23,761 nt of DNA. Source: a virus. Both the position numbers and the translations under genes were made by a program. Location: positions 1-23,761 of IMG/VR virus record IMGVR_UViG_3300020438_000277; one strand, 5' to 3'. Below, piece by piece: positions 18,201 to 22,912 of this stretch (position 1 is the stretch's first letter; each line of letters begins with the position of its first letter). Under the pieces are notes generated by a model. The model made no database searches and was not told the DNA's origin. It saw only the letters and a list, made by a program, of their open reading frames with translations.

Positions 18201-18824
18201 GGTAAGTTTAACGGACTAGAACAATTAACTGAAGTGTTTGATGTGACTTTGAACTGTTATGCAGACTTACAAAAATTTCCGGGGCATCGTATCTACTTAG
18301 ATGCAAAAAGTTTGGTGCCATATTTAAGTAAAGAAACCCTGGAGTCTCTCCACGGCTATCAGCTTGAAGACTTTGGCGTCGGCGGCTTCTATGTGATCAA
18401 TAGCGTTCAACACAACTTTGAACAGGGCAAATTTGATACAATTATAAGAGCACAATGGGAGATGTGGCAGAAAAACAAACCAAAGAAGCAGTACAGCCTC
18501 GAAACTCAAGCGGGTATTGACGAAATACAGAAGCCAATAAAAGAAGCCTGTAAATCGGTCATGGCCCCGGAAGGAGGTTCGCTTGGCGAGTTGTATGATG
18601 CCGCCCGGGCAGTCGCCGAGAGCATTTTTGGAGAAAATGTAACAAATAAAATAGTCGGATTTTTTAAAGGATTAACGGATGTGTTCGATGGCGAAGACCC
18701 AGAACTTATCATGCACAGTTTCCCGTCACAAAACCCAGAAGACTACTCCAATTGGGGAAACGCAGACGAAAACCCCGAAAGCTCGACCGGAGGGTCTCAT
18801 GACGGCCCACAAGGAGTTTCATAA
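15258..18824 (+). CDS. Very large baseplate hub-like structural protein
   Basis: 1188 residues. Residues about 30-155 are a Pro/Ala/Asp/Glu-rich disordered linker with much higher GC than the flanks. Two beta domains follow (about 165-360, and 405-480 with SYDIGQDGSITLTIDYKGYI), then a Lys/Glu-rich coiled region (about 560-635). The second half has LGPVMFNDFFSTDEI with IGDIPIALNHFNSW (about 777-820) and a C-terminal domain with FPGHRIYLD and FGVGGFYVINSVQHNFEQGK (about 1050-1065), patterns I associate with hub proteins of T4-like phages. It probably anchors the tube or spike at the baseplate centre. No lysozyme motif was seen. It overlaps both neighbours by two bases (TAATG). Confidence 0.6.
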   Translation: MSDEGGSIFSTLAYYAFVPAPVKMAIGAGGELLDATQPGRLLGPPLPPPPETPTAGTAAAPKRRVSTPAGLTPEQQARADERIAAMLAEENADADAEREADGMAGPDLPPGYEAPDPSTGGSVSSDPAEESRAATDATKGEESPPDETLTVTATRNRSTLRGFTDHTFVLMQMANLINARNEKLDPALIDEQDEDLNTLSTLKALKKPLPYAYHVPENKKAKDAIFLTKLENAAIQCYGEPHSFLNYMTAWPGYQRYLDSTTADISKLATKIRLFKVFHEDGREEAVEIVFPTSGISGQELEELLKNGSKRGYGSGIKSFNFTLDGTNPLLRTRSVSATLVIYADSMETLLKPRFGGMGNMYIEKDRLHYRYTDLAMKTDTVPGKSGGTDTDGSFGALDDLDYKILVEVGLAKGSGMSSKLNGHTSMALSLGPVTHSYDIGQDGSITLTIDYKGYIEKEFSNPVVYDVFASVESQADDLYKQLGAFGITQTCGTKASKKFNEQVLAEGNKRLKDRVSSLMTQFRKEGGIYYIKIEDSILHAYNVAFNSYEKKVGAATTGDDGKEKKELSAQDKLDIEKAYETLQKALGAIAKEGEEGNSMANSMSNSGDLAESDRKAAEIEKAAEDKEDGEEKTSLKRCAVDPNNTQVAYFYAGDLINHILSRLSEIYSPHGIEEITSVAEKKLFEDPAFAEIMGAMDAAQANAKNYVNESLEGANNIAIMLGYGTGSTRDKEFKELQEEEAQKVVAAATGPLKEIGVGMNDIKNKFSARGERFKKFRVVLGPVMFNDFFSTDEIMCSIGDIPIALNHFNSWLADEVEGKNKYRIGLADFLNKFISHYLRSHLLGDKKLDQGVITQKKSFSSMALTAYNPRSTKGVDALTAHRTNIPSRRGLLYEKVPQAKRPILDTTGTSLRANNAKESYEYMVFFEKMVHPVMLKNAKAAALSHFGISMFQHGRDRGILKTAQYQATNIQGRKEARHQAGKFNGLEQLTEVFDVTLNCYADLQKFPGHRIYLDAKSLVPYLSKETLESLHGYQLEDFGVGGFYVINSVQHNFEQGKFDTIIRAQWEMWQKNKPKKQYSLETQAGIDEIQKPIKEACKSVMAPEGGSLGELYDAARAVAESIFGENVTNKIVGFFKGLTDVFDGEDPELIMHSFPSQNPEDYSNWGNADENPESSTGGSHDGPQGVS

Positions 18825-20017
18825 TGAGCAAATTTTTTGTTGAAAATACTAAAGAGCCAGTAAAAGATATATTTAAGAAAAAGCAATTATTTAAAATTGT
18901 TTCAAGGTCTAAATATCCAAATTTGGTAGATTTCCGTTTTGCCGAAAAAGCATTATACGGCCGTGTAAACAGGCAATATCAACCAATGGTCCCAAACGAG
19001 TCCTTTCTTAAATTAGAATACTTGAGCGCCGGCAATCCAGACGGTATCCAAGCTTTTGATTTTGTTGCTGACGCCTTCCGAGACTTACAAAATAAATTCA
19101 AATTCCAAGTGGCATCTGGCCAGCTGGATTCTGGAGATGAATATCTGACCGAAATAGTGCCGACTGCGGGGTATAAAAGTGCATTAAACTTATATGAGAG
19201 CTACTCAAGCTCTTATTCGGTCGCAATCGGCAACATTATAAAAAAGAAAAATATTAAATTTACCACTTTCGAAGAATTTGTAGGCATTCTAATGCCATAT
19301 ATGAAAAATACAATTAAAAACAGCAAAACTGTAACCTATCCAGCTTTTATAAAAAGCAAAGATTGCCCAATACATGTTTCTGGACTGGTTATTGAGATAG
19401 CAACCATTAAAGCAAATGATGATAATTTTAAATATGAATCTTTCTATAAAAGCAGAAATTGGGATTTCTTTTTAAATGCTTGCAATACCTATGGGTTTAT
19501 GGTAGACTGCAACATGCCTAATCGATTAGTAGCTGATATAGGATCCGCAGCAATGGTTGAGAAAATGAGTAAGTACAACTCAGTAATCAACAGCACTGAG
19601 CGCTTCTTGGCCAATTGTTACGACACCGCAGTTTTTGATGATTTTACGAAGTTCAAGAAATTTCTTTTTCGTCTCTATCGAGACAACAAAAGAACAACGA
19701 TCCTCTCCACCACCCACAACAGCAATGATGGATCGCGCGCAGTTGTAAGAACAGTTAAAAGCTATACTTATCAAGATTTTTTATCTGAATTTGGAGATGA
19801 ATACTTCTTAAATCTGTATTGCGAACTTCGCTTTCTTGAAGAAGAGAGCAAGTTTACCAATGATCAAAAAAAATCTTTGATTGAGAATGCAATAGAACTA
19901 TCAAGGGTAGATTTTACCGCTGGTCTGCTGTGTTTTGAGAAAATTTTAAATAAAACATTTGACTATAATGGCTCTTTGAGTTATATTCTTAATAGGAATA
20001 GATTACTGGGGTTATAG
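18824..20017 (+). CDS. Conserved phage protein of unknown role
   Basis: 397 residues with no enzyme motif that I recognise, rich in Phe, Tyr and Lys. Visible blocks are a Tyr/Phe/Lys start, KYPNLVDFRFAEKALYG (27-43), the block PAFIKSKDCPIHVSGLVIEIA (about 177-197), NWDFFLNACNTYGFMVD with RLVADIGS (about 217-245), and a helical C-terminus. Start ATG is preceded by AAGGAG and overlaps the hub gene stop, and its own stop overlaps the polymerase start. I recall similar unannotated proteins in other environmental T4-like phages near baseplate genes. A virion or tail-assembly role is as likely as a replication role, and the sequence does not decide. Confidence 0.6.
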   Translation: MSKFFVENTKEPVKDIFKKKQLFKIVSRSKYPNLVDFRFAEKALYGRVNRQYQPMVPNESFLKLEYLSAGNPDGIQAFDFVADAFRDLQNKFKFQVASGQLDSGDEYLTEIVPTAGYKSALNLYESYSSSYSVAIGNIIKKKNIKFTTFEEFVGILMPYMKNTIKNSKTVTYPAFIKSKDCPIHVSGLVIEIATIKANDDNFKYESFYKSRNWDFFLNACNTYGFMVDCNMPNRLVADIGSAAMVEKMSKYNSVINSTERFLANCYDTAVFDDFTKFKKFLFRLYRDNKRTTILSTTHNSNDGSRAVVRTVKSYTYQDFLSEFGDEYFLNLYCELRFLEEESKFTNDQKKSLIENAIELSRVDFTAGLLCFEKILNKTFDYNGSLSYILNRNRLLGL

Positions 20018-21219
20018 TGTATTTTCAAGCGCTCGACGACAAAAAACAATGTGTCGGCATTTATCACGATGGTCGACTTGTGTTCGATGAAAACGAATTT
20101 CCCGAATCATTCTCAAATGCGAGAACTTGGAGATATTCAGGGTTCTTGGATGACGACACAATTGAGTATGGCTGGTTGTTGACGCTTGGTAAAACGCTTA
20201 AAGAATCATGCCCCGAACATCTTACGCAAGAGCTGACGCGACATGAGAAAAAGATGAATGCGTATAAAAAGTCATTTGAGATAGCTAAGATCAATTTCAG
20301 GGAACATTGCTTTTTTGACCTTGTTCCGCATGACTTTTTGGTTTCTTTTCTGGAGCTTAAGAATCAGATAACAAAAGATGTATTTGAAACCCGAGAAAAA
20401 CCACCAATTTATAATCATCTATTGAGTGTGGAAAAACTCCTATATAAAATAAGGTATCAAAGTCTGAATGTTAACAATCAAAATGCCCGGGCTCTGTTTA
20501 CTTCTTCGCGCAATAGAACTGCCGCCCAAAAGCTTTTAACAGGACCTAAACACATAGATTATAATATTTTCGGAACACGAACTGGGCGCCTTTCTACCTA
20601 TCCGTCGTCTTTCCCTGTCTTAACGATGCCGAAGGAATTACGCGCTCTTGTAAAACCTCACAATGACTGGTTTATATCGCTTGACTATAATGGTGCAGAA
20701 GCAAGAACTGTTCTTGGCTTGCTTGGGAAGAAGCAGCCCGCGGGAGATGTACATGAGTGGAATGTGGACAATGTTTTTAAGAATAAAGGTGTCTCTTCCC
20801 GCGATGCTGCCAAAACCTTCTTTTTCTCTTGGTTATATAATCCGGACTCTACAAAGATTGAAGAATCTTTCTATGATCGTGACGCGCTATTAAAAATGTA
20901 TTATCAAAACGGCGCCATCCGGACAATCTTTGACCGGCAGGTCGAGGTTGACGAATATAAAGCAGTTAACTATATTGTTCAAAGTACCTGCGCTGATCTA
21001 GTAAATGACCGTGCAGTCGCCATCGATGAATTTTTGGAAGGAAGACAATCCTTTGTTTCACATATCGTACATGATGAAATAGTTCTTGACATGCCGGCAG
21101 AAGAAAGGTATCTTATACCGGAGATTAAAGAAATATTCTCAAATAACAAACTTGACAAGTTTGTCACAAACCTTAAGGCCGGGCAAGACTATATGGATAT
21201 TGGAGTGTTAAATTTATGA
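20017..21219 (+). CDS. Compact family A DNA polymerase without exonuclease domain
   Basis: Template-directed DNA synthesis. Family A motifs are intact: TGRLS at 189-193, motif A LDYNGAEAR with Asp223 and Glu228, the O-helix with Arg262, Lys266, Phe270 and Tyr274 at the exact +4/+8/+12 spacing of E. coli Pol I, and motif C HDE at 352-354. Phe270 is the position that excludes dideoxynucleotides. With 400 residues there is no room for a 3'-5' exonuclease, and none of its motifs appears in the first 150 residues. Motif spacings are shorter than in Pol I (A to B 39 against 49, Tyr to motif C 79 against 116). Starts at GTG, overlapping the upstream stop (TAGTG). The role, main replicase or accessory, cannot be told. 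Confidence 0.85.
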   Translation: MYFQALDDKKQCVGIYHDGRLVFDENEFPESFSNARTWRYSGFLDDDTIEYGWLLTLGKTLKESCPEHLTQELTRHEKKMNAYKKSFEIAKINFREHCFFDLVPHDFLVSFLELKNQITKDVFETREKPPIYNHLLSVEKLLYKIRYQSLNVNNQNARALFTSSRNRTAAQKLLTGPKHIDYNIFGTRTGRLSTYPSSFPVLTMPKELRALVKPHNDWFISLDYNGAEARTVLGLLGKKQPAGDVHEWNVDNVFKNKGVSSRDAAKTFFFSWLYNPDSTKIEESFYDRDALLKMYYQNGAIRTIFDRQVEVDEYKAVNYIVQSTCADLVNDRAVAIDEFLEGRQSFVSHIVHDEIVLDMPAEERYLIPEIKEIFSNNKLDKFVTNLKAGQDYMDIGVLNL

Positions 21220-22079
21220 TTTCAATTATTGGCATTGGCAATGCGGCGTGCGCAATTGCAGAAAACTTTAAGACTCAAAAAAACAATTATAAAGTCTACC
21301 AACTTGGAAGTGAGCAAAAAAGTACCAAATACACCCGGAAATTGAAAAAATTTGATAACCCGGAAGATTACGAAAACAATACTCCGGATCTGCGTAAGTT
21401 TTTTAAAGAAGCTGGTGACGATGTCCAAGTCTTTCTAACAGGTTCTTCATATAGTTCAAACTACGCGTTGGCGATTTTAGAACAATTAAAAGATAGAAAT
21501 GTAGAAATATTTTATGTTAAACCAGACACAGAACTACTCACAGGAGTGCCAAAACTTTTAGAGAATCTAATGTTTGGGGTACTACAAGAATATGCAAGAT
21601 CCGGACTTTTTAAATCAGTTACGATACTTTCTAATTTAGAGATTGAAAAGAGTATTCCCGGCCTGTCAATTAAAAATTACTATGAAAAACTTAATCATAC
21701 CATCTTTTCATGTGTGCACTATTTAAATTTTTTCAATCACACTGAGCCTGAAATTGGCCAAATGGCTAAACCATCAGAAATTAACAGAATCCGCTCGATC
21801 GGAATATTAGATGTAAAAACTTTATCAGAAAAGTGGCTCTTTGAGCTTGACATGCCGCGAGAAACATGCTATTATATATGCATCAACCAAGAAAGACTTG
21901 AGAAGGAAAGCGGATTACACAAGCAGATTGTCGATCTCTTAAAAGAGAAACCAAGAAATGCATTTCGCAAGGTTTCATACGGGATTTGGGAGACACATTT
22001 GCACGATTTTGGGTTTGTCGTTACCCACACAAATGCGACACAACAACAAAATACTCTTGACAAGCTAGAGCAAGAGTGA
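21216..22079 (+). CDS. Putative divergent tubulin/FtsZ-fold protein
   Basis: 287 residues with a two-domain layout that follows FtsZ/tubulin step by step. An N-terminal strand and Gly loop ISIIGIGNAA (2-11) stands where FtsZ has its first nucleotide loop. A strand-loop-helix VFLTGSSYSSNYALAILEQL (72-91) stands where tubulins have the GGGTGSG loop. Then come strand EIFYVKP, TGVPKLLEN, strand VTILSN (135-140), a long helix with YEKLN (156-160), and a C-terminal unit CYYICIN, helix, VSYGIWET and FGFVVTHT like the second FtsZ domain. The G-rich loop is degenerate, so GTPase activity is doubtful. Start ATGA overlaps the polymerase stop by 4 bases. The fold call is my pattern match, and the cautious alternative is an unknown Rossmann-like protein. 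Confidence 0.5.
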   Translation: MISIIGIGNAACAIAENFKTQKNNYKVYQLGSEQKSTKYTRKLKKFDNPEDYENNTPDLRKFFKEAGDDVQVFLTGSSYSSNYALAILEQLKDRNVEIFYVKPDTELLTGVPKLLENLMFGVLQEYARSGLFKSVTILSNLEIEKSIPGLSIKNYYEKLNHTIFSCVHYLNFFNHTEPEIGQMAKPSEINRIRSIGILDVKTLSEKWLFELDMPRETCYYICINQERLEKESGLHKQIVDLLKEKPRNAFRKVSYGIWETHLHDFGFVVTHTNATQQQNTLDKLEQE

Positions 22080-22138: not shown

Positions 22139-22912
22139 ATGTCAATCAACATGGAACTAATGAAAAAGAAACTCGCCCAACTTCGTGGCGAGGATAAAGG
22201 CGACGGTAACTCGCCGTGGTTTAAGCCCGATGAAGGCGAACAAGTGGTTCGCATCGTGCCAACCAACGATGGAGATCCTCTTAAGGAAGTGTATCTCCAC
22301 TACAATGTTGGAGATCACAAGGGTGCAATTACTTGCCCCAAGCGCAATTATGGTGAGCGCTGTCCAATTTGCGATTTCGCTTCCCAGCTTTGGAAAGACG
22401 GAACAAGCAATAACGATGAAGAATCCAAAAAGCTTGCAAAGTCTCTCTTTGTCCGAGCGCGTTACTACTCACCTGTATTGGTTCGTGGTCGCGAAGCCGA
22501 AGGCATCAAAGTCTACGGATATGGTAAGAGAGCGTATGAGCTTCTTCTCGGTTACATTCTTGACCCAGAATATGGTGATATTACTGATACCCTTGAAGGA
22601 ACTGATATTTCGTTGGTTTATACCAAACCAACAACCCCGGGTGCATACCCACAAACAAGCCTCAAGATGCGTCGAAGCACATCTGCTCTACTGGAGGATA
22701 CTGAGGCCATCCCCGCCCTCCTAGAAGGCATCCCCGATATTGATTCACTCTTTGAGCGTCTGACCCCCGAACAAATTGACGCTATCTTAGATGAACAACT
22801 GGCGAGTGGTGCCTCTGCTGAGTCTCGCTCCAACGAGACAAGCAAATATAATAAAGAGCCCGCTATCAACCCAGTTGACAAAGCATTTGATGAATTGATG
22901 GCAACTAAGTAG
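22139..22912 (+). CDS. Single-stranded DNA-binding protein, T4 gp32-like
   Basis: Coats single-stranded DNA during replication, recombination and repair, and works with UvsX, whose gene starts 0.5 kb downstream. 257 residues (T4: 301). The basic N-terminal helix (MKKKLAQLRG) matches the cooperativity arm. The core has FKPDEGEQVVRIVP and a zinc site with C66, C75 and C78 in CPKRNYGERCPICDF plus a His (54 or 60), like H-C-C-C of gp32. The loop RARYYSPVLV follows. The C-terminus is acidic (EQIDAILDEQ, FDELMATK), the arm that recruits partners. CAGGAG precedes the ATG. The 59-base leader with a hairpin may be its autogenous operator. Confidence 0.9.
   Translation: MSINMELMKKKLAQLRGEDKGDGNSPWFKPDEGEQVVRIVPTNDGDPLKEVYLHYNVGDHKGAITCPKRNYGERCPICDFASQLWKDGTSNNDEESKKLAKSLFVRARYYSPVLVRGREAEGIKVYGYGKRAYELLLGYILDPEYGDITDTLEGTDISLVYTKPTTPGAYPQTSLKMRRSTSALLEDTEAIPALLEGIPDIDSLFERLTPEQIDAILDEQLASGASAESRSNETSKYNKEPAINPVDKAFDELMATK

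Follow-up and report, generated by a model that had tools for sequence, protein, structure and literature searches.

The gene at positions 21216..22079 of the window, the 23.8-kb stretch of phage DNA analysed here, encodes a divergent tubulin/FtsZ-superfamily protein of 287 aa (TubB) that lacks the canonical T4 and T7 motifs, is located between a family-A DNA polymerase and a gp32-like single-strand DNA-binding protein (SSB), and coexists in related genomes with a second, canonical FtsZ-like gene (tubA). The reading that we tentatively prefer, held with slightly less than even confidence, is that TubB is a GTPase-defective tubulin paralogue which links the replisome to canonical TubA filaments as an adaptor, seed or cap.

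Part of the genome of a contractile-tailed phage, the window encodes a major head protein, head-tail adaptor, sheath, tube, baseplate hub, tape measure and baseplate wedge. These structural genes are followed by genes for a 397-aa protein, the family-A polymerase, TubB and the SSB. All features of the window given below are on the + strand. The start codon of tubB is an ATG with a 4-base overlap with the polymerase stop (ATGA), and a GGAG is present approximately 10 bases 5' of the start. Comparison with three relatives showed a dN of 0.07-0.12 against a dS of 1.5-3.2 (dN/dS about 0.04-0.05), and the changes between close relatives were mostly at third codon positions, which indicates a constrained, functional gene under strong purifying selection. 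The position of the 287-aa ORF given in a preliminary description of this DNA was confirmed exactly, and the homologues and dN/dS showed that the gene is real. The motifs listed there were also present, namely the N-terminal MISIIGIGNAA, a strand-loop-helix at residues 69-89 with TGSSYSSN and YEKLN at residues 156-160. The C-terminal tail of TubB (residues 277-287, 22044-22079) is disordered with a TLDKL motif and could bind a partner like the FtsZ tail. TLDKL was found in 62/145 near TubB members and in no distant member, and on these counts a clamp-binding peptide was rejected as a general feature.

An AlphaFold2 model of the window TubB built with 81 homologues had a pLDDT of 90.1 and a pTM of 0.88. 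Foldseek produced 622 PDB matches at E ≤ 0.001 for this model, including FtsZ 4dxd and TubZ 4ei7 (both E 1.1e-12), and the best matches among viral models were FtsZ of an uncultured Caudovirales phage (4.9e-12) and Noxifer PhuZ (3.1e-8). VIA-align gave Z scores of 23.5 with CetZ, 22.5 with TubZ, 21.4 with FtsZ and about 21 with beta-tubulin, spanning 265-281 of the 287 residues. A second AlphaFold2 model, of the distant member L268 (34% identical to the window TubB), had a pLDDT of 95.0 and a pTM of 0.92 and showed the same fold, with a Z of 24.4 against CetZ. Overall, the two models aligned with known structures at Z 21-24 over 255-281 residues, and both contained an N-terminal nucleotide-type domain, a long central helix H7 and a C-terminal domain in the tubulin order. 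The assignment of the modelled TubB fold to the tubulin/FtsZ superfamily is secure. The two-domain tubulin/FtsZ fold had been proposed from secondary-structure order, which agrees with the AlphaFold2/DSSP model, and it was borne out by both models, by whole-length matches and by profile-profile comparison with PhuZ. The AlphaFold and Foldseek comparison suggested with that proposal found the tubulin topology, with FtsZ, TubZ and PhuZ among the matches.

Sequence kinship was detected with profiles. The profile of the diverse TubB family scored 32.5 against the PhuZ profile, a score reached by 0/200 column shuffles (best 23.4) and not by the reversed profile (17.7), and the similarity was detectable over T1 to T4. 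The score against E. coli FtsZ was 21.2, which was matched by 2/200 shuffles; the known pair PhuZ-FtsZ scored 26.2 by the same method. Pfam Tubulin gave weak matches in four divergent TubB members, the best of which (E 0.0034) was below the cut-off, and the window TubB sequence had no Pfam, PHROG (including phrog_4733) or PDB match above threshold. Common ancestry of TubB with the tubulin/FtsZ superfamily is likely. A Rossmann dehydrogenase or similar protein, to which weak Pfam matches pointed (CoA_binding_2, F420_oxidored, GARS_N and TrkA_N), was rejected since these matches stem solely from the N-terminal strand-loop-helix and the fold over the whole length takes precedence. Sequence matches to AF1502 and uteroglobin (PDB E about 0.1 or worse) were taken as chance.

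The TubB family is carried by hundreds of uncultured marine viral contigs. A single-sequence scan of viral contigs with the window TubB found 56 related loci and a profile scan, with alignment, confirmed at least 590 TubB stretches. A scan with the neighbouring polymerase reached TubB members 23-37% identical, and the gene was present in 73/76 such loci; the remaining three lie on contigs that stop shortly beyond the polymerase. A single-sequence query of the viral contigs with E. coli FtsZ found nothing. No credible TubB match was obtained in 50,697 phage records by tblastn with divergent queries included, so that no cultured phage with the gene was found, and matches of the L236 query to phage records at E 0.7 were regarded as chance. 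Likewise, tblastn of TubB to phage PhuZ genes matched no phage record, and TubB was found in none of 84,980 species genomes, which gave no bacterial or archaeal source.

At the nucleotide site, the T1-like loop and the start of helix H1 occupy residues 2-13 (ISIIGIGNAACA, 21219..21254), and hhalign paired this stretch exactly with its FtsZ equivalent (IKVIGVGGGGGN). The T1 glycines G6 and G8 are conserved in the window's clade. At the T4 position, alignment showed that residues 76-82 (21441..21461) are GSSYSSN replacing GGGTGSG, and the canonical GGGTG[ST]G loop was found in 0/175 TubB members. The loop of the window's clade is mostly G-[SA]-S-x-S-S-N, with G76 in 81/81 representatives and S78, S80 and S81 in at least 95%. 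Distant members have GSGNISG, GGGKISG, GSGLVTG and similar loops, their seven residues in register with GGGTGSG, and many of them retain GxGxx[ST]G-like loops. Together with the conserved GSSxSSN of the window's clade, these loops indicate that T4 was not subject to random decay. Judging from the aligned loops, the ancestral T4 probably kept glycines 1, 3 and 7, and the window's clade swapped the last two for serine and asparagine. The GTP loop is thus altered, as the preliminary description had stated from the missing GGGTGSG, but its term 'broken' is misleading since the loop was rebuilt and is conserved in the clade.

On the guanine side, S139-N140 (21630..21635) was identified by FtsZ alignment as the equivalent of FtsZ IPN and tubulin N206, and an N at position 140 was found in 142/145 near TubB members. 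YEKLN (residues 156-160, 21681..21695) at the start of helix H7 aligned with FtsZ DAFGAAND, and N160 is invariant in the near clade. N140, Y156 and N160, which we take to be tubulin N206, Y224 and N228 by established numbering, are kept in the near clade and absent from the six sampled lineages with the greatest divergence. Their retention in the window's clade argues for a retained nucleotide there, and a static guanine nucleotide in TubB of this clade is plausible from its sequence. The suggestion of a nucleotide-free protein was therefore not borne out for the window's clade, though the three equivalents are lost in the most divergent members. Because of that loss, nucleotide binding cannot be a family-wide need, and the motif pattern suggests that the family as a whole depends on neither a static guanine nucleotide nor hydrolysis.

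The catalytic T7 motif NxDxx[DE] was found in 0/175 TubB members when the region from H7 to the next strand was searched. In the window, the T7/H8 position (residues 176-191, 21741..21788) lacks NxDxxD, with no helix separating H7 from the next strand, and neither TubB model (window and L268) has a helix at the H8 position. GTP hydrolysis by TubB appears unlikely from these residues. An active cytomotive filament like PhuZ or TubZ, in which the Ser-rich phosphate loop still binds and hydrolyses nucleotide, would suit a length near that of PhuZ, the whole two-domain fold, and the conserved Ser loop and guanine-side residues of the clade. The missing T7 acidic motif and H8 helix make such a filament improbable; in phiKZ TubZ the T7 and H8 elements form the subunit interface and active site (PMC3678025). 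The earlier proposal that TubB is itself a cytomotive filament was thus unsupported, with T7 missing and the canonical filament-type GTPase encoded by the second gene, tubA.

The polymerase upstream of tubB (20017..21219, Pfam DNA_pol_A 8e-13) is a minimal family-A enzyme of 400 aa with palm and fingers, apparently without an exonuclease domain. Each of six large relatives has one family-A polymerase, the one adjoining tubB, and no family-B polymerase was detected in these six. The SSB is encoded at 22139..22912 (Pfam gp32 5.4e-14, phrog_1192 1.5e-27). The 397-aa protein directly upstream of the polymerase (18824..20017) had no family match in Pfam or PHROG; locus L135 has a similarly sized gene in the same place. 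The polymerase was found upstream of tubB in 169/169 loci with room, as would be expected from the preliminary description of a gene encoded with a polymerase, and the SSB was found downstream in 161/161 loci with room. The polymerase-tubB junction was ATGA or GTGA in 170/171, and the gene order was retained in lineages 23-37% identical. In the distant set, six loci had a gap of 0.2-2 kb between polymerase and tubB; L214, L248 and L205 have 0.8-2 kb of extra DNA there, possibly inserted genes.

Judged by sheath and SSB, the closest cultured phages are Microcystis phage Mel-JY01 and Flavobacterium phage immuto; their operons are ordered similarly, with other small genes in the tubB slot. A split tubulin in the slot of immuto or Mel-JY01 (151+171 aa and 129+110 aa) was rejected as there was no match to the TubB family profile. 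The two phages share a small conserved protein with an HRKKESNT motif between polymerase and SSB (L181:1346-1801, L180:23675-24064).

Gene position also bears on a very doubtful reading, that TubB is a host-takeover protein, an FtsZ mimic that poisons the division ring of the host and so blocks its division during infection. Phage inhibitors of FtsZ exist, and an FtsZ-like fold without the hydrolysis parts would suit a dominant-negative subunit. However, phage host-takeover genes are usually small, early and variable, whereas tubB is flanked by polymerase and SSB wherever the locus has room.

A second, canonical FtsZ-like gene, tubA, was identified away from the TubB locus; Pfam Tubulin matched over the curated cut-off in the records of 7/11 large relatives, with a product of about 383 aa. 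Examples, all outside the window, are L271:1297-2448, G001:94554-95684, G002:181060-182184 and G003:9066-10193; the window itself, as a 23.8-kb fragment, has no TubA. TubA matched FtsZ structures by phmmer (E 3.5e-10) with the T7 acids aligned, and its GVGGGGN, GGGGGTGSS and SFD..DLETC T7 acids were invariant in 20 sequences. At its N-terminus TubA has a conserved extension of about 65 residues, and its gene adjoins an SbcC-like recombination gene. At least 66 viral loci carry TubA, most of them with 81-91% identity; no close relative was found in a cultured phage, the best being that of Bacillus phage G (23.5%). The TubA-TubB profile score was 20.5, which places the two very distant from each other, and the genes are not adjacent.

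Both proteins were encoded in 8/8 near-clade records holding the polymerase (G001-G006, G011 and G012). Ten TubA records were without TubB and seven of these were checked for the polymerase, which was absent from 7/7; since both are missing, these records are probably fragments of the other genome half. The mean pairwise identity across the eight genomes was 89% for TubA, 78% for SSB, 59% for TubB and 57% for the polymerase. The extreme conservation of TubA fits a filament former; TubB changes about as fast as the polymerase, and its 59% identity, compared with 89% for the canonical TubA of these genomes, also speaks against TubB as an actively hydrolysing filament. Eight distant TubB-carrying records of 55-155 kb, which are incomplete, yielded no TubA, and TubB may therefore work without it there.

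These distributions give weight to the main rival of the preferred reading, in which the replisome has recruited the tubulin fold as one of its structural subunits, such as an accessory or clamp-like adaptor of the 400-aa polymerase, with no filaments involved. The linkage to the polymerase predates the near clade, the mean identity of TubB tracks that of the polymerase, and TubA is undetected in the incomplete records of distant carriers. Moreover, conservation is strongest not in the nucleotide loops but in QEYARSG (residues 124-130, 21585..21605) at the end of a long helix, a candidate partner-binding surface. No other stretch is as conserved across the family, and Q124, R128 and S129 are invariant in the diverse set. 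A subunit of this kind is nevertheless rather unlikely, as TubA is always present in near-clade records and as TubB keeps T1 glycines and several base contacts, features for which a plain scaffold would have no use.

Under the preferred reading of a GTPase-defective paralogue, TubB would be co-expressed with the DNA polymerase and SSB that the phage itself encodes and would bind the replisome or replicating DNA. TubA would form the GTP-driven filament, and TubB would not itself drive filament turnover and would act on TubA filaments as adaptor, seed or cap. With its guanine side kept and its hydrolysis residues lost, TubB of the window's clade may hold a guanine nucleotide statically. In this way the phage DNA would be positioned or sorted within the host cell as it replicates. 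We infer these interactions and the positioning role from the computed fold, motif loss, gene order, co-occurrence and relative rates. This explanation is weakened in that the links among TubA, TubB and the polymerase rest on gene order and co-occurrence, both indirect evidence, and compact phage operons commonly overlap genes. The wider proposal of a marine phage lineage with a two-component tubulin cytoskeleton, in which the pseudo-GTPase TubB of the replication operon tethers, nucleates or caps the TubA filament so that replication and positioning are mechanically coupled, is more speculative and less likely than not.

Phage tubulins themselves are already known; new here are the altered T4 and T7 across the family, the polymerase-SSB linkage and the co-encoded canonical TubA. 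A literature search on marine phage tubulin pairs found nothing on the TubB family, and none was found on family-wide loss of both hydrolysis motifs, a fixed linkage to polymerase and SSB, or a second canonical copy in the same genome. If the preferred reading is true, TubB would be, as far as we know, the first viral specialised pseudo-tubulin, a parallel to gamma-tubulin or the actin-related proteins, and a cytoskeleton would be tied to the replisome. The identification also names an abundant gene left blank by current annotation.

Among known systems, TubB resembles the PhuZ/phage TubZ of phiKZ-like jumbo phages as a phage-encoded tubulin-superfamily protein of about 290-330 aa. The known phage tubulins, PhuZ in jumbo phages and TubZ in c-st, are single active GTPases, and they position DNA in known cases (PMC7950403). 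PhuZ keeps a glycine-rich T4 of the GG[SA]SGS type and has the catalytic T7 (PMC7950403, PMC3678025), whereas TubB has neither the canonical T4 nor T7; unlike PhuZ, TubB is also flanked by polymerase and SSB genes and shares its genome with a second, canonical gene. A query with phiKZ gp54, the chimallin shell protein of the nucleus-forming phages (Chimalliviridae), had no match in five records, a search run without a positive control. The TubZ of plasmids and prophages (RepX) is similar to TubB in fold (Z about 22 over 270-280 residues), but it is an active GTPase with a partner, TubR, and TubB has no GTPase motifs. Archaeal CetZ (Z 23.5-24.4) and FtsZ (Z 21-22.6) were the best structural matches, although TubB is only about 10-19% identical to them and lacks GGGTGSG and the T7 acids. 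To our knowledge, no partner in the known tubulin pairs has lost both T4 and T7. In alpha/beta tubulin and BtubA/B there are likewise two superfamily members per genome, and Odinarchaeota have dual FtsZ paralogues (PMC12583498). In the present phages, the two members are putative partners, very distant and not adjacent, unlike those of the dual-tubulin systems, and one is canonical and the other divergent.
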